Part shown: one piece after another, positions 10,001 to 64,000 of the stretch
Numbering within the stretch: the first letter of the stretch is position 1
How the letters are laid out: every line of letters begins with the position of its first letter
Origin: Roseimicrobium sp. ORNL1
Lineage (GTDB): Bacteria > Verrucomicrobiota > Verrucomicrobiia > Verrucomicrobiales > Verrucomicrobiaceae
NCBI RefSeq assembly: GCF_011044495.1
Contig: NZ_CP049143.1
Span: forward strand, 6,696,001-6,760,000
Reading direction: 5' to 3'
Length of the DNA stretch: 64,000 nucleotides
Program-made: the position numbers and the translations under genes
Notes under the pieces: model-generated
What the model was told of the DNA's origin: nothing
Databases searched by the model: none
The model's input: only the letters and a program-made list of their open reading frames with translations

Positions 10001-11377
10001 TCAGGACACAATCTCCATCGCCACGCGCCCATGCACATCGGTGAGGCGGAAGTCGCGGCCTGCGTATTTGTAGGTCAGGATCTCGTGATCGAGGCCAAGG
10101 AGGTGGAGGATGGTGGCGTGGACGTCGTGGGTATCCATCTTGCCTTCGACGGCAGTCTTGCCGGTTTCGTCCGTGGCGCCGTGGCGCATGCCACCCTTCA
10201 CGCCACCTCCGGCCATCCACATGGTGAAGCCGGTGGCATTGTGCCCGCGACCATTACCGTCGCCTTTGTCATCGTTGGGCGTGCGGCCGAATTCCCCGCC
10301 CCATAGGATGAGGGTGTCCTTCAGCATGTCGCGCTGCTTCAGGTCGGTGATGAGACCGGCGATGGGCTTGTCGATGGATTCGGCGCGACTGCCGAGGTTC
10401 TTGCGAAGGTTGTTGTGATGGTCCCAGCCGGTGTGCGTGATTTGGATGAAGCGCACGCCCTTCTCCGCGAGTCGTCTTGCCGTGAGGCATTGTGTACCAA
10501 AACGCTCGGAGGCGGCATTATCGAGGCCGTAGAGCGCATTCATCGAATCCGGCTCCTTGGAAAGGTCGAGCACGCTAGGCACCGAGGTCTGCATCTGGCA
10601 GGCCATCTCCATGGACTGGATCACGCCTTCCAACTCGGGATTGGACGGATCATGTTGCGTGAGCAGGCGGCGGTTCAGCTTCTGCATGAAGTCCACCTGC
10701 GTTCGCTGGTTTTCATACGAGAGCAACGGCTCCAGATTCGGCAGGCCACGCTGACCGCCGCTGATGCGCGTGCCTTGATAGGTGGCGGGCAGGAAGGCCG
10801 AGCCATAATTCATCGCGCCGCCCTGATCATGCGGTGGGTCGATAGTGATGAAGCCGGGCAAATCCTGCGCCTCGGTGCCGAGACCATAGACGGTCCACGC
10901 GCCCATGGAGGGGCGGACGAACATTTCATTCCCCGTGTGCAAGGCAACCGTTGCCTGTTGATGCGAAGGCGTGCGCGTCGTGCAGCCATTCAGCAGGCAG
11001 AGATCATCCGCATGCATCGAAAGTTCCGGAAAGGCCTCGGAGATCATGATGCCACTTTTCCCGCGTGGCTCGAACTTGAAGCGTGAACCCAGAATCGCTC
11101 CACTCGGACCACCTTCGCGGTCCGCGATCTCCGGCTTCCAATCGAAGGTATCCAGATGGCTGGGTCCACCCTGCATGTAGAGGAAGATGACCCGCTTCGC
11201 CTTGGGAGCATGATGCGGTTTCTTGGGCGCCAGGGGATTCACATACCCCGACTTCTGCTCCGCCTGAAGCTGCCACCCATTCAGTGCGGAGAATGCCAGC
11301 CAGCCAAACCCGGCGCTGGTGCTCTGCAGGAAGCCACGACGCGTAGTGGCGAGGGAAATGTTCGAGCAGGTGTTCAT
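10001..11377 (-). CDS. DUF1501 protein, Tat-exported
   Basis: The product is 458 residues. The N-terminus carries a twin-arginine signal (TTRRGFLQSTSAGFG) and the body is a DUF1501 domain of the alkaline-phosphatase/sulfatase-like superfamily. Family blocks include FLYMQGGPSHLDTFDWKP, GGEFGRTPN and GRGHNATGFTMWMAGGGVKGG, with LTDVHGRV at the C-terminus. The gene is third in an apparent operon with the PL10 lyase and DUF1549/DUF1553 genes, following the latter by 48 bases. The substrate is unknown. The link to a pectate lyase suggests a role in acidic-glycan breakdown. Confidence 0.92.
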   Translation of the reverse strand: MNTCSNISLATTRRGFLQSTSAGFGWLAFSALNGWQLQAEQKSGYVNPLAPKKPHHAPKAKRVIFLYMQGGPSHLDTFDWKPEIADREGGPSGAILGSRFKFEPRGKSGIMISEAFPELSMHADDLCLLNGCTTRTPSHQQATVALHTGNEMFVRPSMGAWTVYGLGTEAQDLPGFITIDPPHDQGGAMNYGSAFLPATYQGTRISGGQRGLPNLEPLLSYENQRTQVDFMQKLNRRLLTQHDPSNPELEGVIQSMEMACQMQTSVPSVLDLSKEPDSMNALYGLDNAASERFGTQCLTARRLAEKGVRFIQITHTGWDHHNNLRKNLGSRAESIDKPIAGLITDLKQRDMLKDTLILWGGEFGRTPNDDKGDGNGRGHNATGFTMWMAGGGVKGGMRHGATDETGKTAVEGKMDTHDVHATILHLLGLDHEILTYKYAGRDFRLTDVHGRVAMEIVS

Positions 11378-11425
11378 GGAATTGGGATTTCAAATTTGAG
11401 ATCTCAAATTTCAGATCGAATCGAA

Positions 11426-13444
11426 CTAGAGGAGATAGCGGAACTCGGCGCTGCTCATGAGCGCCTGGATGAGGATGGCCCAGCGGGCGGAGCCTAAGGA
11501 GGCATCGAGCGCCTTCATCATGTCACGGGCTGCGGTGACTTCCGCGACGTCCGGCTTGCGCCCTAGAACACGGATGTAGGCGACCTGCACGCGCGCGGCA
11601 TCGTCCTTGTGTTCTTCCTCCAGCAGACGCTCGGCAGCAGCGCGCGCGAGCGAAGCGGAGAGTTCCCCATTCAGGAAGAACAAGGCCTGCGGCGCCACGG
11701 TGGTGACTTCGCGCTGTCCTTTGATCTGGCTCGGATCAGGAAAGTCGAAGGTCTCATGCATAGGCGTGAGCAGGGAGCGCAGCACCGGCAGATACACAGT
11801 ACGGCACGGCTCATCATCCGGCGTCAGACTGCGCAGTCTCGCTTCCTTCCCCTTCCCTCCGTAGCCCGCCACCTGCGTTCCCTCTGGACGCTCAAACTTC
11901 AACTCTCCCGCGACGAAGAACATGGAGTCGCGAATGGCTTCCATTTCCAACCGACGCAGGTTCATGCGCCAGAAATAATCATTCCCGCCATCGAGTTCTT
12001 CCTTCGCCGCATCTCCCTTGCTGCTGAGCCGGTAGGTACGGCTCAGCATGATGCTGCGGATCATCTGCTTCACAGACCAGCTATTCTCCACAAAGCGCAC
12101 GGCGAGATGATCCAGCAGTTCCGGATGCGTGGGCTCTTCACCGGTGCGGCCGAAATCATCCACGCTGCGCACGATGCCGCGACCAAAGAGGTGCTGCCAG
12201 ATACGGTTCACCATCACACGTGAAGTGAGTGGATGATTCGGCGTGGAGATCCACTTCGCGAGCTCCAGCCGGCCACTCGCCTTCTCCGGAATCACCGGCA
12301 GCGGAGGCAGCATGGGAATCTGTAACTCACCACGCTTCGGTGCCTCACCGCGATTGTACGCGTCTCCTTTGATGGCCAAGGGACAGTCCTGCGGCTCACC
12401 CTCCGCCAAGCCCATGGCGCGAGCGGGATCAAAGCGGTAGAACACAGGATAGCGTCCGTTGTTCATCTGCATGTCCATCATGCTGCTGTCGTCGCTACCG
12501 GAACTGGAAGACGATGCGACGCCGCTCTTCCCTGATGTATTAGCGGCTACCTCCGTTCCAGCCGCAGGTACGCGCACCAGGGCATCCACATCGACATAAC
12601 CGTTCGCGCCGAGATCTCCCTTGGGGCGCTGCCCCTGCCAGGTCTCGCTACTATAAAAGATGCCTGCGAGCGCGTAGTAGTCCCGTTGTGTGATGGCATC
12701 TGTCTTGTGATCATGGCATCGCGCACACGCCACCGTGAGACCGAAGAAGGCACGCGTAGTGACATCGATCTGATCATCCACCTGATCCATACGGAAGAGT
12801 TCGCCGCCATCGGATAGATCGAGCGAGGCCATGGTGAGCATGCCGGTGGCGATGGTGTTCTCCGACCTCTCCTGCGGTGTAGCAGCAGGCAGCAGATCGC
12901 CCGCAAGCTGTTCCGCAATGAAACGGTTGTACGGCTTGTCCTTGTTGAAGGCATCGATCACATAATCCCGATAACGTCGCGCGAAGGGGAACGCGGCATT
13001 CATGGTGCGGCCCACGCTGTCCGCATAGCGCACCACATCCAGCCAGTGGCGTCCCCACCGCTCGCCAAAGCGCGGTGACTGCAACAAGCGATCCACCACC
13101 TTTGCAAAAGCCTGATCGTCATTGGCCGGATCACGCAGGAAGTCCTCAAGCTCCTTCTCCGTGGGCGGCAGGCCAGTGAGATCAAAGGTGGCGCGTCGCA
13201 GCAGCACGGCACGCTCCGCATCCAGATTTGGCAAAATCTTTTTTTCCTCCAGCTTCACGAGGATGAAGCGATCGAGATCATCACGGATCCAGTTCTCGCG
13301 CTCGACCTTGGGCGCCACGGGTCGGTAGAGCGGACGAAACGCCCACGACACAGCCTCTTTGTCACGCGCCACGACGGACGATGCCGCCAACAGCGAGCCC
13401 AAGGCCACCCCTCTGGTCACCTTCAATAACAAAGACGCATGCAT
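11426..13444 (-). CDS. DUF1549/DUF1553 protein lacking the N-terminal cytochrome domain
   Basis: The product is 672 residues, shorter than its relatives here (938-1007 residues), because it starts directly with a signal peptide and the WAFRPLYRP segment. It has no N-terminal PSCyt1 CxxCH domain. DUF1549 is clear (FDLTGLPPTEKELEDFL, RWGRHWLDVVRYADSVGR, CARCHDHK). The DUF1553 part follows (RVMVNRIWQHLFGRGIVRSVDDFGRTGEEPTHPELLDHLA). A short Ser/Gly/Asp/Met-rich insert lies near residues 300-330. It sits 5 bases after the PL10 lyase gene, so the two are very probably co-transcribed. The single remaining CxxCH could bind haem. Confidence 0.92.
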   Translation of the reverse strand: MHASLLLKVTRGVALGSLLAASSVVARDKEAVSWAFRPLYRPVAPKVERENWIRDDLDRFILVKLEEKKILPNLDAERAVLLRRATFDLTGLPPTEKELEDFLRDPANDDQAFAKVVDRLLQSPRFGERWGRHWLDVVRYADSVGRTMNAAFPFARRYRDYVIDAFNKDKPYNRFIAEQLAGDLLPAATPQERSENTIATGMLTMASLDLSDGGELFRMDQVDDQIDVTTRAFFGLTVACARCHDHKTDAITQRDYYALAGIFYSSETWQGQRPKGDLGANGYVDVDALVRVPAAGTEVAANTSGKSGVASSSSSGSDDSSMMDMQMNNGRYPVFYRFDPARAMGLAEGEPQDCPLAIKGDAYNRGEAPKRGELQIPMLPPLPVIPEKASGRLELAKWISTPNHPLTSRVMVNRIWQHLFGRGIVRSVDDFGRTGEEPTHPELLDHLAVRFVENSWSVKQMIRSIMLSRTYRLSSKGDAAKEELDGGNDYFWRMNLRRLEMEAIRDSMFFVAGELKFERPEGTQVAGYGGKGKEARLRSLTPDDEPCRTVYLPVLRSLLTPMHETFDFPDPSQIKGQREVTTVAPQALFFLNGELSASLARAAAERLLEEEHKDDAARVQVAYIRVLGRKPDVAEVTAARDMMKALDASLGSARWAILIQALMSSAEFRYLL

Positions 13445-56692: not shown

Positions 56693-56735
56693 ACTTGCGC
56701 AAGATGTCTCCGGGCTCTGATACGATTCCATCTCG

Positions 56736-57152
56736 ATGAGCACACTGGCACCCTCGCGCACCTTCAACGGGATTCACTGCACGCTCACTATCCGACGCCC
56801 CGTCGCAGGTGTCGTGCATGCCGTCTTCAAAGGCCCGGATGTGGGTGAGTTTGGCGATGCTCCTTTTCAAGAACTCGCCCTCGATGTGGGACACCTGGCG
56901 CCTGTAGAGATTTTCATCGATGCGCGCGAGGTCCCCGCCGCTTCCCTGGAAGTCAGCGCCGACTGGGCGCACTGGATGTCTGCGCATCGCGATCGCATCC
57001 AGCGGTTGAACATCCTCTGCGGTTCCAAGTTCATCGAGCTGACCGCCGGCTTCGTGCAGAAGTTTACACAATTTGGCGCCCGCATGCGCATCTACACGGA
57101 TGCCTCCTCCTTCGAGGAGGCGCTGCGGGTTGCTGTCGGAAACGTCACGTAA
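56736..57152 (+). CDS. STAS-like small protein
   Basis: The product is 138 residues with no signal peptide. Its pattern resembles STAS/SpoIIAA-type folds: a beta-strand start, PVEIFIDAREVPAASLEVSADWAHWM, then RIQRLNILCGSKFIELTAGFVQKFTQFGARMRIYTDASSFEEAL. STAS proteins often act as anti-anti-sigma or phosphorylation-linked regulatory partners. It sits 43 bases downstream of the kinase gene, so a kinase/STAS pair is possible. The family assignment is tentative. Confidence 0.55.
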   Translation: MSTLAPSRTFNGIHCTLTIRRPVAGVVHAVFKGPDVGEFGDAPFQELALDVGHLAPVEIFIDAREVPAASLEVSADWAHWMSAHRDRIQRLNILCGSKFIELTAGFVQKFTQFGARMRIYTDASSFEEALRVAVGNVT

Positions 57153-57188
57153 TGCAACGTTCAAAACGGCGACCTGTCTTGTGCTTCA

Positions 57189-57950
57189 CTAGCCACTAGT
57201 CCGCTCACAGCAGGAGCGTATGTCTCCCGCGATAAAAGCCTCCACAAAGGCGGCAACGCCAGGAACCGTGCGGACACCTGCAGGGGGAGGGCCTGTTGTC
57301 TCATGCCCAATGAGCACGGCTGCCAACCCGCATTGCAGAGCGCCCTTGATATCAGATTCAATACTGTCTCCGACCATCACAGCCTCCTGGGGAGTTCGAC
57401 CTAGCAATTGCAAGCATCTGAGGAACGGCGCAGAATGAGGCTTGCGAAACCCAACATCTCCACAACACACGATTGGTGGCACCATGGACAACTCGCGAAG
57501 ATGGTGGGAGAATTCAGTTTGCCAATGTATCGCGGACACACCCCAAGGCAGGTTGGAAATGATGCCAACTGCATAACCTTGATTGAGCAGACATTGAACG
57601 GATGGCCAGACTTCTTGTGGTACCGAGGCACTCCCGAAAATGGACCGGCATAGCTCCTCCTCCATCCCGATAAGCTCCTCACGCCCAATGAAAGGAAACC
57701 ACGAACGCATCCTCGTCGCAAAGGGCGTGACCTGGCAATCACTCCTTTCAGTGTTGATGGCTATGAGCACATCACGCCACTCTTCCAGGGAAACGGGCGT
57801 ATAGTCGAAGCGGTGCAACTGGTGGCGCAGAAATCCATCCAGGAACTCCAACTGCGTAGAAGTCGTCCCCAGGGGATAATCCACCAGGGTGTTTCCCCAA
57901 TCGAAGAGCACGGTAGTTATGTCGTCACCATGGACAGGAATTCGCCCCAT
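57189..57950 (-). CDS. HAD-superfamily hydrolase
   Basis: The product is 253 residues from the ATG at 57950, overlapping the preceding gene end by 34 bases; a GTG at 57911 is an alternative. Motif I is FDWGNTL, so the usual second Asp of DxD is Gly. Motif II is likely SNLPWG, motif III the Lys in FRKPHSAPF, and motif IV is MVGDSIESDI. A helical cap follows motif I. It is last in a cluster with a PaaK-like and a PurC-like gene and would fit removal of a phosphate from a small metabolite, but this is inference. The loss of the second Asp may alter catalysis. Confidence 0.82.
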   Translation of the reverse strand: MGRIPVHGDDITTVLFDWGNTLVDYPLGTTSTQLEFLDGFLRHQLHRFDYTPVSLEEWRDVLIAINTERSDCQVTPFATRMRSWFPFIGREELIGMEEELCRSIFGSASVPQEVWPSVQCLLNQGYAVGIISNLPWGVSAIHWQTEFSHHLRELSMVPPIVCCGDVGFRKPHSAPFLRCLQLLGRTPQEAVMVGDSIESDIKGALQCGLAAVLIGHETTGPPPAGVRTVPGVAAFVEAFIAGDIRSCCERTSG

Positions 57951-58681
57951 AACGTCAATATGATTTCAGGATCCTTGCCCTTGCGCCACAGATCTTTATC
58001 CATGTCAGTATCGAGCTTTTTAACCCTCATACAATCAGGTGACACCTCACTGAAAAGCGTCTTGCCGTCAGACGTGAGCATAAAGCATATATCCAGCAGG
58101 TGCAGGCCGCGAGGTTGCAGAAAGGCGACAAGCGCTTGAAAGGCCTCTAAGGCTGTCGACTGAGCCTTTTCGACATCTATGAATTGATTGGCAAGCCAGA
58201 GGGGCATGCACTCATCGCGGTGCGGCAGCGCATTTCGCCAGTCGAACCTCACATATGGGTCATGCGGAGCGGAGAAACAGATGTGGCCACCGAAGCGGGT
58301 CGGATGGTCAGTGATTCCGTGATAGATATGCTTTGGAGTCCCAACGTGGCAGGCTTTGACGATGACCTCGATCGGAGTGGCCTGAACATACTCTGTCAAA
58401 TAGCTGTTGGGTCCTACCGCGAGGATGGAAGTGCTGATTCCTGCATCTTCAAGAAGGCGCCACAGCCGCTCACTGATGCGGAGACGAAGGGAGTCCGTTC
58501 CCTCAACGACCCCGCTCCGATTTGCTGTAATGGAATAAAGTGTTGGCTTCAGTCTCACTATCGCCAGCTTTGGTGTCACGGCCCGCAGGATTTTTGACTC
58601 CCCTTCGGCCAGCAATGGCAACTCATTGAAGCGGGCATCGGCGTCTGCGAGCAGTTGTTGGTAGTCAGTGTTTGGAGGCAT
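57917..58681 (-). CDS. Divergent PurC/SAICAR synthetase-like ligase
   Basis: The product is 254 residues from the ATG at 58681. PurC family traces are clear along its length: LLAEGESKIL (nucleotide loop near 24-32), TPIEVIVKACHVGTPKHIYHGI (102-123), LLDICFMLTSDGKTLFSEVSPDCMRV (195-220) and DMDKDLWRKG (226-235). PurC joins a carboxylate to an amine through an acyl phosphate using ATP. Here two conserved PurC positions, Lys in FKLEFG and Asp in DEFSPD, are changed (to Cys and Ser), so it is probably not the purine enzyme. It follows the PaaK-like gene by 38 bases and lies in AT-richer DNA. Confidence 0.82.
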   Translation of the reverse strand: MPPNTDYQQLLADADARFNELPLLAEGESKILRAVTPKLAIVRLKPTLYSITANRSGVVEGTDSLRLRISERLWRLLEDAGISTSILAVGPNSYLTEYVQATPIEVIVKACHVGTPKHIYHGITDHPTRFGGHICFSAPHDPYVRFDWRNALPHRDECMPLWLANQFIDVEKAQSTALEAFQALVAFLQPRGLHLLDICFMLTSDGKTLFSEVSPDCMRVKKLDTDMDKDLWRKGKDPEIILTLWGEFLSMVTT

Positions 58682-58719
58682 TGCGAGAGCTGCGGTGAAT
58701 GGAAGGAGCGGGGAGCGGA

Positions 58720-60189
58720 TCAAATCTTGATCATGGGTGGGCCCTTGATGCTGCCAGGTCCACCAAGGCATACCGTGACACTGGCAGTGCCAGCCTCCAC
58801 CCTTCTTTTGAGGGCGCTGCCCGGTGCGGACAGCAATCGGCTTTCGATGGTTTGGCACAAGTTCGCAGCACGCTCGGGAAACGCCGCCGGATTCCAGCGA
58901 AGCTGGACAGAAACACGAATGTTGATGATGTCCTGAGACGGACTCTCCGAAGAGAGCGCAAATATCGGAGTCGACCCCACCAGCCTGTCCTGCACCACCG
59001 AGATATTAGGAAAGTAATCCACGCAATCCGTGTCGGGCAGGGATCCTAGAATATCACACAGATGAGCCGATGAAACAAGGCAGTTTGGAGTCTCTGCCAA
59101 AACATCTACCAAACAGTTTTTCAGTTTTCCGAGAAATGCAAAGTTTGGCAATCCGTATTCGTCTTTGGTCTGGTGCACCAAATCGCCAGTCGCATACCGG
59201 ATTAGAGGCTGCAGTTGTGTGAATGGATGGAGATTTGTGATCACAAGTTCTCCAGTTCCGTTGCCTTCGATGGGTCTTCCTGTAGTAGGATGAATCACCT
59301 CGGCGACAAGATGGGGATCGAATTGGAATAGCCCGGAAATCCCATTCCGGTTCGCTCCGCCGGAGGCCTCGGTCATGGACCAGCGATCGATCACACGACA
59401 ATTCCACTGCACCTCCAGCCACTCGCGCCAATGGGTCGCCAGGTATCCACCGGTGATGGTCACCGTCTCCAAGTTCAACCCGGCAGGCGAAATCCCCGTT
59501 TCCAGAAGATAGGCCGTGAAGAAAACAATATGATGGGCAAGACCCGAGAGCAGGGAAATCTGCCCAGCACAGCCGGGCAAGCTGTAGCGTCTGGTCAGGA
59601 TCCGTGCAGCGTCCTGAATAAGGGTATCATCCGTCACGCCACTGGAGAGGGGGAACCCAAGCGAAGGCAGCGGAACGAGAGTGCCGTGGTAGAGATTTGG
59701 AAATGACAGTGACAGCGGACGCAATGAGAAGCCCCTGCGAATTGGCGCAAACAGGCGGGAATAATACCGCTGTAAGAACATGACTTCTTCTTCCGACCGG
59801 TGCATCAAGACAGGTTGTCCTGTGCTCCCGGAGGTATGTGAGACCATTCGGAGTTTCACATCCGTCGCGAGCATCTCGCAGTTGTGGACTTGCAAATCCT
59901 CGCGCCGAAGCACAGGCAGACTGGAGAGTATCTCGTGGCAAGTGGCTCCAGCACTCCTGCTCTCAGAAGTTTCGTAGTGACTCCTTCTATCGGAATAGTA
60001 GTGGGAATGGGCAACCGCATGACGAAGGGTGCGCCCCAGTAATACCTTATGCAGGGTGGCGTGGAGGGCGGACTGGAGGGGGCCACGTCGCATGGCTAGC
60101 GCCATCAGATCAGCAGCACCTTCCGGCTCAAAACACCTTTGCTCATCAAAGAGAGTCTCGAGTTGGCGGGAGAATTCAGCGGGACTCAT
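58720..60189 (-). CDS. PaaK-like adenylate-forming enzyme
   Basis: The product is 489 residues. The P-loop motif TSGSTGQPV is at 119-127, with WSMTEASGG near 270 and RYATGDLV near 345. These are hallmarks of phenylacetate-CoA ligase/CapK-type adenylating enzymes, which activate a carboxylic acid as acyl-AMP for transfer to CoA, an amine or a carrier. It starts 114 bases after the short peptide gene and 38 bases before the PurC-like gene, all on the minus strand. The acid substrate is unknown. Base composition here is lower in GC than in the flanking genes. Confidence 0.85.
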   Translation of the reverse strand: MSPAEFSRQLETLFDEQRCFEPEGAADLMALAMRRGPLQSALHATLHKVLLGRTLRHAVAHSHYYSDRRSHYETSESRSAGATCHEILSSLPVLRREDLQVHNCEMLATDVKLRMVSHTSGSTGQPVLMHRSEEEVMFLQRYYSRLFAPIRRGFSLRPLSLSFPNLYHGTLVPLPSLGFPLSSGVTDDTLIQDAARILTRRYSLPGCAGQISLLSGLAHHIVFFTAYLLETGISPAGLNLETVTITGGYLATHWREWLEVQWNCRVIDRWSMTEASGGANRNGISGLFQFDPHLVAEVIHPTTGRPIEGNGTGELVITNLHPFTQLQPLIRYATGDLVHQTKDEYGLPNFAFLGKLKNCLVDVLAETPNCLVSSAHLCDILGSLPDTDCVDYFPNISVVQDRLVGSTPIFALSSESPSQDIINIRVSVQLRWNPAAFPERAANLCQTIESRLLSAPGSALKRRVEAGTASVTVCLGGPGSIKGPPMIKI

Positions 60190-60303
60190 AAACTACTGAA
60201 GTTCCGTGAACTCACCCATGCATGCTCCCTTCGCATGCCCGTGCAAAAAGATAACAGGATCCCACAGCGTAGCGTACAGCCTGCTGTTTGGCCAACCTTG
60301 GGC

Positions 60304-60462
60304 TCACTCCTGCGTCGCGTTCTCAGCGCTTGCGGCTTCGGCCGCCATTTCTGCGGCAACTTCTGCAACAATTGCTGCCGCGGCTTCCTTCCGACGATCA
60401 CCATCATTCTCCGTAGAAGCGTCCGCTATGGCTTTATTGACAAATTCAATAATTTTCTCCAT
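60304..60462 (-). CDS. 52-residue acidic helical peptide, possible carrier or precursor
   Basis: The ATG at 60462 encodes a 52-residue peptide beginning MEKIIEFVNKAIADAS, with a KEAAAAIVAEVAAEMAAEAAS helix and C-terminal ENATQE. The composition is strongly Ala/Glu and it has no Cys. It lies directly upstream of the PaaK-like, PurC-like and HAD genes. A perfect TTGACA -35 motif lies upstream. A small acidic protein ending in Glu next to carboxylate-activating ligases recalls amino-group carrier proteins such as LysW, though this one lacks the zinc ribbon. It could equally be a peptide precursor or a chance frame. No ribosome-binding site is obvious. Confidence 0.5.
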   Translation of the reverse strand: MEKIIEFVNKAIADASTENDGDRRKEAAAAIVAEVAAEMAAEAASAENATQE

Positions 60463-60470
60463 AGCAAACG

Positions 60471-60498
60471 AGACTACACATCTTGTCAGTCCTGTCAA
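60471..60498 (-). promoter_or_regulatory. Candidate promoter for the PurC-like cluster
   Basis: On the minus strand TTGACA (60493-60498) and TAGTCT (60471-60476) are separated by 16 bases. Transcription would begin about 2 bases before the ATG at 60462, implying a nearly leaderless message. The -10 match is weak. Confidence 0.35.
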
Positions 60499-60639
60499 TA
60501 CATCGAAATACTGTTGTTGCTAAGAGGAGGAATCGTTGCCGTGCTGGGTGGGGACGCGGATGTTGGCAGAGAATCTGAACTGGCCCGCCATCTTCTGTCG
60601 CGCATGATGCAGCGCCCTCCAAAGCAGGAGGCCAAACTC

Positions 60640-61584
60640 TCATGAAAAGAACACCTTCTCCGCCGTCTTGCGCAGCATCCACGCCTTGTCTTCCGGCGAG
60701 AGGAAGTCCAGACGCTCGCGGATGAGGGCGATGGAGTCCTTGTAGTTGTGCCCCTCCCCCACCTGGAAGGGACAGTCGCTGGCCCACATGAGTCGCTTGG
60801 CGCCATACGTATCCCGCAAACGCTGGATCATGGGGCCGAGATCCGTGTAGGGAGCCTTCTTCGCGCCCAGCGCATAGAAGGCGGAGGTCTTCACAAAGGT
60901 GTGCTCCGCGTCCGCCAGACGGCAGAGGTTATCCAAATCCTTCTGATCAACCGCACCCTTCATGCCAATGCGGGCGAAGTGGTCGATGACAACGCGCGTC
61001 TTCGGATACTGCGCGCACATCTTCTGCACTGCAGGAAGCGCATCCGGATTGGCGAGAAGACACATCGAGAGACCGGCATCTGCGGCACAGGACCACATGG
61101 CCTTCATGCCCGGGGAGCTTTGCCAGGCTTCGGCCTTTTCCTTGTCGGTGTAGATGCGGAATCCGCGCACGCCCTGCTTCGCCAGTTGCTTCATCGTATC
61201 CGCCACATCCGGTTCGGATTCATCCACAATGGCCACTCCACCAAACACACCGGGATGCGCCTTCATGGCATCGAGCATGTACTGGTTGTCGAACTGGTAG
61301 AAACTCATCTGGATCAGCACGATGCGGCTCACGCCATTCGGCTTGGTGTGCGCGAAGAGTTCCTCCGGCGTGAAGCTTGCCGGGTCCATGCCCTTCTTCG
61401 TGGCGCCTTCACCCAGTGGATACCGATCCGTGTCCGGCGTCCACACATGCACATGGGCATCAATGCAGTCCTTCGAGACATCATTATCATCAGCCGCTTG
61501 TGCAAAGGCAGGAGCGGAGAGGGCAGCGAGTGCAGCAGAACGAAGAAACGTGCGGCGGGAGGTGGATGCGGGCTTGGTGCTCAT
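60640..61584 (-). CDS. Amidohydrolase family 2 (TIM-barrel) enzyme, Tat-exported
   Basis: The product is 314 residues from the ATG at 61584; an ATG at 61629 is also possible. It has a Tat signal (TSRRTFLRSAALAALSAPAFA) and then the metal-binding HxH in DCIDAHVHVW. Later family residues include VVIDHFARIG and WASDCPF (metal-ligand Asp). Amidohydro_2 members hydrolyse lactones or amides or decarboxylate aromatic acids. It follows the M20 peptidase gene by 41 bases, and with the MFS transporter forms a likely operon for uptake and cleavage of an unknown small molecule. Confidence 0.9.
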   Translation of the reverse strand: MSTKPASTSRRTFLRSAALAALSAPAFAQAADDNDVSKDCIDAHVHVWTPDTDRYPLGEGATKKGMDPASFTPEELFAHTKPNGVSRIVLIQMSFYQFDNQYMLDAMKAHPGVFGGVAIVDESEPDVADTMKQLAKQGVRGFRIYTDKEKAEAWQSSPGMKAMWSCAADAGLSMCLLANPDALPAVQKMCAQYPKTRVVIDHFARIGMKGAVDQKDLDNLCRLADAEHTFVKTSAFYALGAKKAPYTDLGPMIQRLRDTYGAKRLMWASDCPFQVGEGHNYKDSIALIRERLDFLSPEDKAWMLRKTAEKVFFS

Positions 61585-61625
61585 GGTGGGAGAAGGCAAA
61601 GGCGATGCTGATGCTATCTGGTCAC

Positions 61626-62771
61626 TCACTGAAAACGAAGAATGAAATTCCGGTAGAACTCAAAGGCCTGCTGCACTTGATCGAGTTCCACATATTCCAC
61701 CGCCGCGTGGGCGCGATCGATGCTGCCGGGACCGAACACGAGGCTGGGAACACCCTGGCGCGAGAGCTTGCTCGCATCACAGCCAAAGGGCACGCCGCAG
61801 AGCTCTGCATTGAGGCCCATGTCACGCAGCACCGCGCTCGCACATTGCGCAGCATCCGAGTCTGCCGAAGTCTCGAGCGCCTCATCCGTTAGCAGCGGTG
61901 GATCTTCGATGCCGGCATCCATGGTGGGATGCTCTGACTTCAATTGATCCAAAATCCGCTGGTAGTGCGCCAGCACATCAACTGTGCGCTCACCGGGAAG
62001 CAGCCGCCTATCGATCTCAATCGCACAGGCGTCCGGAACGAAGTTGATCTGCACGCCGCCCTGAATCACGCCGACATTACACGTCGCCGGGCCGAGCAGC
62101 GGATGATCATTCACCGCGAGTCGCAGATGATCCTGCTCCAGTGCCAGAACGATACGCGCCATGTGATTGATGGCATTCACCCCAAGATGCGGCTTCGAAC
62201 TGTGCGCGGACTTCCCTCGCACGAGGATGCGAAAACGCAGCACGCCCTTCGTGGCAATCACCGCGCGCAACCCCGTGGGCTCCGCCACCAGCGCTGCATG
62301 CCCCGTGAGTCCCTCGCAAAGCTTCACCACCCCGCGATAGGAGAACTCCTCGTCCACCGCCGCAGCGAGCCACACTTCGCACGGCGGCTGGATGCCCTCC
62401 TCATGCAATGTGGCCAGTGCATGCATCATCCCGGCGAGGCCTGCTTTGGTATCACACGAACCGCGTCCATACATCTTCCCATCCTCAATGCGCGGCTCAA
62501 ACGGTGGAATCGTCATGCCCTTCACGGAGACGGTGTCCGTGTGTGCTTCGAGAATGATGCGACGGTTCGGATTTTTGCCGGGCAGTCTCGCGATGACATT
62601 CGGCCGATTCGGAAACACCTCCTGCTCCCACACTTCGATACCGCGTTGCTCAAAGTATTCCCGCACCCACGTGGCAATCTCGCGCTCTCCCGGACCACCT
62701 TCATACGAAGGATTGATGCTGTTGATGCGCACCAGCGAGGCAAGAGTATCGATGAGAGAAGATGACGCCAT
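61626..62771 (-). CDS. M20 metallopeptidase, ArgE/DapE/CPG2 type
   Basis: The product is 381 residues. Metal and catalytic motifs are in order: EAHTDTV, GRGSCDTKAG, the Glu pair in VDEEFSYRGV, VAEPTG, and the C-terminal His in SIDRAHAAVEYVE. A dimerisation domain lies at about 180-300 (RGKSAHSSKPHLGVNAINHMA). Such enzymes hydrolyse N-acyl amino acids or small amides. It starts 9 bases after the transporter gene ends, so import and hydrolysis are probably coupled. Confidence 0.94.
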   Translation of the reverse strand: MASSSLIDTLASLVRINSINPSYEGGPGEREIATWVREYFEQRGIEVWEQEVFPNRPNVIARLPGKNPNRRIILEAHTDTVSVKGMTIPPFEPRIEDGKMYGRGSCDTKAGLAGMMHALATLHEEGIQPPCEVWLAAAVDEEFSYRGVVKLCEGLTGHAALVAEPTGLRAVIATKGVLRFRILVRGKSAHSSKPHLGVNAINHMARIVLALEQDHLRLAVNDHPLLGPATCNVGVIQGGVQINFVPDACAIEIDRRLLPGERTVDVLAHYQRILDQLKSEHPTMDAGIEDPPLLTDEALETSADSDAAQCASAVLRDMGLNAELCGVPFGCDASKLSRQGVPSLVFGPGSIDRAHAAVEYVELDQVQQAFEFYRNFILRFQ

Positions 62772-62780
62772 GGCTGCTAC

Positions 62781-64000
62781 TTAGGACTTGCTCCATTGGA
62801 TGGGCTGCACGCGGGGGACAAACAAAAGGTAGGTTGCCACACCCGCGAGGAGCACGATGGAAGAAACGATGAAGGCGTTTGTGTAGGAGTGCGTCGTTTT
62901 GACGATCCATCCTGTCACCAGAGGCGAGACCACACCTCCAAGATTCCCAACGAAGTTCTGCACACCCGTCCACTGGCCCGATGCAGTGGGGCCAGCGAGG
63001 GTCTGGGTGACGGCCCACACATTGGAGGTGTACAGGCCAAGCGAGGCACACGCAGCGATGAGCAGCACGATGCACATCACCGAACCGGTGGCCAGGGTAA
63101 TGGACCACATGAACGCCGCGCAAAGCAGCAGTCCACCAAAGAGGAAGCTCCGGCGCACCTTGGTGGGTGTGGCTCCTGCGGAGATCCAGCGGTCCGAAAT
63201 CCACCCTCCTGTCAGTGAAGTGGCCGCCATCGCCCAGAAGGGGAGCGAGCCATACACGGCCATCTCTTCCGTGGTGAATCCGCGTCCCTCGCGCAGGTAG
63301 GAAGGCAGCCAGAAAACCACAAAGTACCACGCATAACCCAGGCAGAAGAATCCGAGTGAGGTGCCCCACAGTTCAGGGCGCTTGAGAATCTCCTTCATCG
63401 GTGTGGCGTCCGGGCGGGTGCCATGCTTTTGCTGCGCAGTGTGCTTTTCCGACGGCACCGCGAGGAGCCACGGGATGAGCCAGAAGAGGCTCGCTACCCC
63501 GACGATGATGAACAAGGCCCGCCACCCGTAGCGGGCAAGAACCAGACCACCCACCAGCGTGCTGAGGGCCGGACCCACCTTTGTGCCCGCGTCGATGAGG
63601 GCATTCGCCAGACCACGCTGCTGCTCGTTGAAATTATCGACGATGACCCGCGACGTCGCCGGGAAGGCCACACTCTCGCCCGCACCCAGCAGCACTCGGA
63701 GAATCAGGAGGGAGACAAGCCCATTGGCCAGACCCATGCCCACGGTGGCCAGGGACCAGATGAGAAACCCGAACGCGTACACCCACTTCACGCTGTACCG
63801 ATCCACCAGCCATCCAGCCGCCAGGTGGCAGATGGCGTAGCTCGCGGAGAATGCCGAGAACAGCCAGCTCATCTGCACGTCATCCAGGCCAAATTCCTCC
63901 CCCACATTTGGCTTCGCCACAGAGAGGCTGCCCCGGTCGATGTAGTTGATCGTTACCGCGAAAACGAGCAACACAAGGATCACGGTGGGCTTGGTAGAAC
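62781..64000 (-). CDS. MFS transporter, anion:cation symporter-like (5' end outside window)
   Basis: The frame stays open to the right edge with STKPTVILVLLVFAVTINYIDRGSLSVA, so the true start is probably a few codons outside. About 12 hydrophobic segments are visible. The NYIDRGSLSVA motif, GWLVDRYSVKWVYAFGFLIWSLATV and GESVAFPATSRVIVDNFNEQQRGLANALIDAGTKVGPAL are typical of the ACS family, which moves hexuronates, glucarate or phthalate-type organic anions. It is first in an operon with the M20 peptidase and amidohydrolase. Confidence 0.92.
   Translation of the reverse strand, partial: STKPTVILVLLVFAVTINYIDRGSLSVAKPNVGEEFGLDDVQMSWLFSAFSASYAICHLAAGWLVDRYSVKWVYAFGFLIWSLATVGMGLANGLVSLLILRVLLGAGESVAFPATSRVIVDNFNEQQRGLANALIDAGTKVGPALSTLVGGLVLARYGWRALFIIVGVASLFWLIPWLLAVPSEKHTAQQKHGTRPDATPMKEILKRPELWGTSLGFFCLGYAWYFVVFWLPSYLREGRGFTTEEMAVYGSLPFWAMAATSLTGGWISDRWISAGATPTKVRRSFLFGGLLLCAAFMWSITLATGSVMCIVLLIAACASLGLYTSNVWAVTQTLAGPTASGQWTGVQNFVGNLGGVVSPLVTGWIVKTTHSYTNAFIVSSIVLLAGVATYLLFVPRVQPIQWSKS

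Follow-up and report, generated by a model that had tools for sequence, protein, structure and literature searches.

Roseimicrobium sp. ORNL1, whose genome is a single contig of 7.96 Mb, carries a compact four-gene island in which a gene for a short peptide rich in alanine and glutamate lies next to a gene for a predicted adenylate-forming ligase of the PaaK type. The island (57140-60638; no strand) lies in a 64,000-nucleotide stretch of that contig (NZ_CP049143.1, positions 6,696,001 to 6,760,000), which we call the window and whose numbering is used throughout. A homologous peptide gene accompanies the ligase gene at every locus that we examined in the close ligase clade. At roughly even odds (a probability of about 0.5), we read the peptide as the carrier or precursor for the ligase in a nucleotide-type pathway that is independent of coenzyme A.

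Four intact genes occupy 57189-60462, all on the minus strand, and their coordinates bear out the order peptide, PaaK-like, PurC-like and HAD given in an initial annotation that had been made from the sequence alone. The peptide gene (60304-60462, minus strand) encodes 52 amino acids, of which 16 are Ala and 9 are Glu, with no Cys; its proposed role as carrier or precursor draws on its similarity to 11 other peptides encoded beside PaaK-like genes. After 114 bp follows the ligase gene (58720-60189, minus strand; 489 amino acids), assigned from its predicted fold and from the motifs HTSGSTG and YATGDL and a penultimate lysine, Lys488. Another 38 bp separate it from a gene for a PurC-like protein of the SAICAR-synthetase family (57917-58681, minus strand; 254 amino acids), recognised by a PF01259 match and an alignment in which catalytic-site residues are changed. 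This gene overlaps by 34 bp the last one, for a HAD-superfamily protein with the motif I DWGNT (57189-57950, minus strand; 253 amino acids), named from a Pfam match and motif reading.

The peptide gene accompanies the ligase gene

Relatives of the ligase were collected from plasmids and genomes. A tblastn search of plasmids returned 32 records, among them PaaK-like relatives from Aminobacter, Mesorhizobium and Rhizobium leguminosarum that match at about 40%; H2, H5, H12 and H13 were examined, so that the peptide check covers two (H2 and H5) of the ten records near 40%. Scanning genomes with the ligase alignment yielded 21 loci, of which nine show 37-42% identity: one each in an Acidobacteriaceae genome, Peteryoungia, Prosthecomicrobium, the cyanobacterium Petrachloros, R. 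leguminosarum and Roseibium, and three in Nocardiopsis. Our close-clade set comprises the window, L010, L011, L015-L023 and L053, the last from the Nocardiopsis order. Each of these loci (13 of 13) has, next to its ligase gene, a gene for a homologous peptide rich in Glu and Ala. Kin are over-represented in this count (L019 is almost identical to L011, and the Nocardiopsis-type loci resemble one another closely), which stands for about seven separate lineages. Beside the window, four named phyla are covered. All 13 loci show the arrangement that marks candidate ribosomally synthesized and post-translationally modified peptides, namely a gene-encoded peptide beside a putative modifying enzyme.

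The pairing also emerged from a fixed composition rule. In 215 kb of 11 clade loci, this rule found 11 peptide open reading frames (ORFs), all 0-796 bp from the ligase gene, having missed the L023 peptide (found by pattern) and counted two in L018. Ten of the 11 are on the same strand as the ligase gene, upstream of it or just overlapping its start, and the L015 ORF is on the other strand. Applied to 351 kb of other loci, the rule found two ORFs, one unrelated and one that is the window's peptide again, in L036; L025-L035 were used for this background count alone, and the duplicates L001, L003, L039, L040, L042, L045-L050, L053 and L054 were set aside. In Petrachloros (L018:9359-9950), the peptide gene is present as two tandem copies upstream of the ligase gene.

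Compared with the window peptide over their full length, the other peptides scored at a level reached by at most 2 of 1,000 shuffles in each of 11 comparisons (10 loci), and the N-terminal 34 residues alone gave the same result in seven of the 11. We considered whether these are ordinary degradative or cofactor genes that are neighbours by chance, with a short ORF that is untranslated or unrelated. Small ORFs are common, and the HAD and PaaK superfamilies have very many members, but the same peptide family recurs beside the ligase throughout the clade and the four genes occur together in another phylum, and we regard chance as highly improbable. A pathway built on the peptide was among the guesses of the initial annotation, and it is the one that comparison supports best, through the pairing and the peptide similarity; the amide or ester product that went with it stays a proposal.

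In an alignment of 12 peptides, in which the repeats align loosely, E34 and E38 are the sole invariant residues, and Cys is absent from all 12. The other 11 peptides, as trimmed, are 59-94 amino acids long, and the number of Glu/Ala repeats varies widely. The tails GVRRPY and GIRRPY are common to L011 and L016, two deazapurine clusters, and the window tail ENATQE is unlike the tails of the other 11. None of three peptides scanned (P0001, P0005 and P0006) matches any NCBIfam family; P0001 has one Pfam match, to PNPase, at an E-value of 0.047 and below the cut-off. Among distant relatives of the ligase, L012 and L024 have doubtful peptides alone. Two distant PaaK paralogues without a peptide (L052:3623-6498 and L051:8469-10738) stand, respectively, by nucleotidyltransferase-like and 2H-phosphoesterase-like ORFs and by a radical SAM-like ORF, all named by eye.

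Ligase fold and motifs

The structural model of the ligase (predicted local distance difference test, pLDDT, 81.5; predicted template modelling score 0.83) has its nearest fold in PaaK1 (2y27_A; Z 28.3, root-mean-square deviation 4.8, 393 residues aligned), followed by ClxA (9s45_C; Z 26.2, 4.0, 355 aligned) and NatL2 (6tm4_AAA; Z 25.6, 4.8, 372 aligned). GH3 amido synthetases match more weakly, with Z up to 17.3, and sequence identity in the best 18 fold-match rows is 16-21%; sequence searches of the PDB were used for family naming alone. Judged by this predicted fold and by its ATP/adenylate-type motifs, the ligase belongs to the PaaK family. Nine aligned clade rows share H-x-S-G-x-T-G, E274, G277-G278-A279, R-Y-x-x-G-D-L and the penultimate K488 without variation; K488 is probably the A10 lysine, within residues 484-489, which are poorly modelled. 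The score against the phenylacetate-CoA ligase equivalog TIGR02155 is 30.9 bits, against a cut-off of 646.3. A ThiF/E1-like ligase such as MccB of microcin C is not encoded here, the ligase being of PaaK type and the other three island genes not ThiF-like.

NatL2 and ClxA are reported to make esters or amides (PMC7204872 and PMC12519233). The island ligase, as modelled, shares their fold, has ATP/adenylate-type motifs and would likewise act in a small-molecule pathway, but its best fold matches stand at 16-21% identity and it is tied to a Glu/Ala-rich peptide gene. Among the open-access literature matches listed, no link to a peptide gene is reported for the NatL2/ClxA family. These fold relatives join small molecules, which would suit an arrangement in which the peptide is a small non-substrate partner of the ligase (an activator or docking subunit) and the ligase joins two small molecules. 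The peptide is short, acidic and free of Cys, in keeping with such a role; however, its wide variation in length and repeat number would be odd for a subunit, and S8 peptidases travel with some of the peptides. We think it unlikely that the peptide is such a partner.

PurC-like and HAD proteins

The PurC-like protein matches the Pfam family SAICAR_synt (PF01259) at 38.8 bits, above the cut-off of 20, and scores 18.1 bits against the purC equivalog TIGR00081, for which the cut-off is 189.9. Four canonical PurC rows carry Lys, Glu and Asp at the places that C199, M201 and S211 take in this protein; these are the Lys of DFK(I/L)EFG, the Glu two residues after it and the first Asp of DE(I/V)SPD. 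The initial annotation had noticed the Cys and the Ser, which the alignment confirms, and the change of Glu to Met is added here. Homologues in L015 and in a second genome of the phylum (G149) have Cys, Phe and Gly at the same three places. Like PurC, the island protein falls in PF01259 and its subfamily keeps the SPD..R and DKD..R-type motifs, but as aligned, the loss of the canonical residues (Lys to Cys, Glu to Met or Phe, first Asp to Ser or Gly) is a trait of all three subfamily members (3/3). The PurC encoded at the Aminobacter locus L010, by contrast, keeps Lys, Glu and Asp. The structure model of the PurC-like protein, made from two sequences, has a pLDDT of 39.5, and the active site was read from alignments.

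PurC uses this Lys, Glu and Asp for its carboxylate-activating chemistry. The suggestion that the island holds two carboxylate-activating enzymes is therefore weakened for the PurC-like protein, which has lost them. A second SAICAR_synt gene was found in the same genome (G000:C1:1825508-1826011, 59 bits); its 447-amino-acid product reads WDIKWEF and VDTIDTDSFR, seems from these motifs to keep Lys, Glu and Asp, and is likely to be the housekeeping enzyme, at 67.1 bits against the purC equivalog and thus itself below the cut-off. This other PurC (L002:952-2295) is unusually long and divergent. We rejected a housekeeping PurC role for the island protein on the strength of the 18.1 against 189.9 bits, the second gene and the three lost catalytic-site residues, and the second gene and the equivalog score uphold the earlier judgement that purine synthesis is unlikely for it. 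In G149 (L014:8804-12654), the homologue, at 43%, overlaps a gene that matches AAA_28 weakly and looks kinase-like by eye; an adjoining ankyrin-repeat ORF has a second half that looks TIR-like by eye, transposase-like ORFs are near, and neither a PaaK-like gene nor a Glu/Ala peptide was noticed at this locus.

The HAD protein matches PF00702 at 48.3 bits (cut-off 26.4). HAD phosphatases carry a second Asp in motif I (DxD), and this motif is DWGNT both in the window and in L015. Because Gly stands at the place of the second Asp, plain phosphatase action is doubtful on this reading of the motif; of the phosphatase-type enzyme initially proposed, the HAD domain stands and the phosphatase type is weakened.

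Gene neighbourhoods of relatives

All four genes occur together elsewhere, on an Acidobacteriaceae contig (L015) with homologues of the peptide, the ligase (41%), the PurC-like protein (55%) and the HAD protein (40% over 205 amino acids). Its neighbours are histidine phosphatase, GATase, GMC oxidoreductase, aldo/keto reductase, NUDIX, HAD, PurC-like and HisG genes. The histidine phosphatase is found again in each of the four Nocardiopsis-type loci, as are two further L015 proteins without a Pfam match; these two (L015:9472-10299 and 10944-11759) also lack an NCBIfam match, and the first is CYTH-like by eye.

Around the Aminobacter ligase (L010) lie genes for a beta-RFAP-synthase-like protein (192.3 bits to the subfamily, cut-off 113.5), a NUDIX-type protein, an S8 peptidase, PurC, PurH, a GMC oxidoreductase and TrpF. 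We tested 12 of these L010 neighbours against Prosthecomicrobium L017, which has homologues of nine, that of the xanthine-dehydrogenase gene being partial; the HAD, NUDIX and PurH genes have none. The R. leguminosarum locus L011 has genes for an S8 peptidase, FolE, PurA, PurB, QueE, IMPDH, nitrile hydratase alpha, QueC, HAD and a phosphoribosyltransferase, and all ten have homologues in L016 and L019, with the phosphoribosyltransferase weak in L016. At L018, the neighbours are a phosphoribosyltransferase, radical SAM/SPASM and HD proteins and a phosphoribosyl pyrophosphate (PRPP) synthetase, and at L020 a TruD and a methyltransferase, the TruD match covering part of the model at 121.3 bits against an NCBIfam cut-off of 172.2. 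The C-nucleoside pathway that leads to pseudouridimycin probably begins with an enzyme of the TruD type. S8 peptidases are encoded in five loci (L010, L011, L016, L017 and L019).

Proposed function and alternatives

We propose that the peptide, with its N-terminal part and its Glu/Ala part, serves the PaaK-type enzyme as substrate or carrier, and that this enzyme would activate a carboxylate with ATP and join it as an amide or ester without coenzyme A. In the simplest version, the activated carboxylate would be on the peptide, either its C-terminus or the side chain of a conserved Glu, and the partner would be a small molecule of nucleotide type. Making or changing this partner would fall to the PurC-like and HAD proteins, where relatives have HisG, PRPP synthetase, phosphoribosyltransferases, TruD, PurH/TrpF or 7-deazapurine enzymes instead. 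The product would be freed from the peptide, in some relatives, by an S8 peptidase; the window island has no protease.

Several observations weigh against this proposal. The excess of nucleotide-type enzymes near the peptide-ligase pair, seen in several lineages, is an apparent one, drawn from a plain tally of annotated neighbours. L023 supplies the sole annotations for Nocardiopsis, and neither of its two annotated neighbour genes is nucleotide-building; the distant ligase relatives L012 and L024 lie amid heptose, glycosyl or carbamoyl genes, that is, sugar or polysaccharide genes. The window island lacks an S8 peptidase and any recognisable PRPP-using enzyme, and a search of its genome with the Rhizobium S8 enzyme, made without a positive control, found none. 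In the peptide comparison, the peptides of L010, L016, L017 and L020 (4 of 11) show no significant similarity when the N-terminal part is taken alone, and the distant relatives L013, L051 and L052 have no such peptide, L013 having a different 68-amino-acid ORF upstream. The ligase scores 16.4 bits against Pfam AMP-binding (cut-off 29.9), and all its NCBIfam matches are far below cut-off (best 88.7 of 300 bits); because both fall short, family names do not reveal its substrate. In the ligase tree, the base is not resolved and the window ligase is on a long branch. Finally, the peptide tails differ between L010 and L017, even though these loci have most of the tested L010 neighbours in common.

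This last point bears on what becomes of the peptide, for which the carrier-or-precursor proposal has two special cases. The peptide could be a scaffold or carrier alone, like LysW or the PEARL scaffold peptides, from which a small product is cut off and whose tails are free to vary. The invariant E34 and E38 alongside variable tails, and the S8 peptidases, would fit this, although the alignment of such repetitive Glu/Ala sequence is uncertain and the annotated neighbours included nothing recognised as a LysX/ArgX or PEARL homologue, where no search was aimed at these; we hold this version tentatively, at somewhat worse than even odds. Alternatively, the peptide or its tail could be kept and joined to a nucleotide analogue in a Trojan-horse product, as in microcin C, with the PaaK-type enzyme replacing the ThiF/MccB-type one. 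A ribosomal peptide, a predicted ATP-dependent ligase, nucleotide-type genes, the S8 peptidases and the tails shared by L011 and L016 are all consistent with that; yet the L010 and L017 tails disagree, which weakens the tail as a part of the product, the window tail resembles none of the others, and none of the island's four genes encodes an exporter or immunity protein, and we consider such a product rather unlikely here.

The carrier-or-precursor proposal can also be widened. The conserved pair may be a plug-in platform for a so far undescribed kind of ribosomal-peptide-assisted synthesis, one that makes peptide-borne nucleotide analogues, joined lineage by lineage to differing nucleotide-building sets (7-deazapurines, HisG, PRPP synthetase with radical SAM, TruD-type or PurC-like); this is quite possible, if a little short of an even chance.

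By analogy, the systems closest in logic appear to be microcin C and the PEARL scaffold peptides. For microcin C, a ribosomal peptide, an ATP-dependent ligase and a nucleotide are described (PMC12250964), and to that extent the island resembles MccA/MccB in its themes; the PaaK fold, however, is unrelated to the ThiF-like ligase of microcin C, and the island-type peptide is longer, acidic and repetitive, with nucleotide-type biosynthetic genes in several neighbourhoods. In peptide aminoacyl-tRNA ligase (PEARL) pathways such as that to 3-thiaglutamate, a ribosomal peptide assists in building a small molecule (PMC12945691), and the island would likewise use one; but no LanB-like PEARL was recognised here, and activation would use AMP rather than phosphate with aminoacyl-tRNA. 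Among the matches listed from the open-access literature, none describes the pairing of a PaaK-type ligase with a peptide of this sort. If the proposal is right, it would add a new ligase type to the uses of ribosomal peptides in small-molecule synthesis, make scattered cryptic clusters open to testing, some in named isolates (R. leguminosarum and Peteryoungia ipomoeae), and offer a natural test case for the PurC fold after loss of its canonical catalytic residues.

Origin of the island

In G061, the one other genome of the genus compared, the same flanks (window 56736-57139 and 60639-63994) lie 37 bp apart and the island, between two convergent genes at about 57140-60638, is absent. Within the family, the PurC-like protein occurs in 1 of 68 genomes, this one. 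At an E-value of 0.001, it has matches in 7 of 387 genomes of the phylum including its own, strong in one other (43%, G149) and at 28-30% in the remaining five. A ligase profile at an E-value of 1e-40, with the centre genome itself included in each count, matched 1 of 387 genomes of the phylum (its own), 2 of 280 in the class of the L015 genome, 1 of 297 in the order of the L017 genome, 1 of 278 in the phylum of the L018 genome and 4 of 282 in the order of the L021 genome; in the class of the L015 genome, the G547 match and a second G448 match are distant paralogues without a peptide. The close PaaK-like clade is rare and sporadic across phyla.

Because the gene group is rare and scattered and the site is empty in a near relative, the island was probably gained from another bacterium, as the initial annotation had suggested from composition; loss in G061 alone may be the alternative. 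The contrast in GC content that it had counted by hand, 42% against 67%, recomputes to 41.7% at 59041-59160 and 66.7% at 62281-62340, both hand-picked extremes, and the AT-richer block is real at the level of genes and bins. Whole-gene GC is 52.6-55.1% in the island against 59.3-64.5% in six neighbouring genes, and GC at third codon positions is 0.46-0.60 against 0.68-0.83. Of the 64 1-kb bins in the window, none has a GC content as low as the three across 57001-60000 (0.532, 0.548 and 0.558), although the margin is small, the next-lowest bin being at 0.560.

No mobile-element gene was seen among the four island genes, where no wider search was made, and no clear target duplication at either junction. 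Viral carriage was set aside after two scans of viral contigs, with the PurC-like protein and with the ligase alignment, found no relative; the PurC-like protein had no match in genome contigs and one weak match in plasmids. A defence island was likewise set aside, the four proteins having no match to PADLOC models at an E-value of 0.01. Promoter and terminator signals across 56700-60900 were no commoner than in shuffles. Beyond the island, amidohydrolase (lactonase-like), M20 peptidase and MFS-like genes at 60640-63983 form a catabolic-looking operon; we excluded them from the module, as this flank is conserved in G061 without the island.

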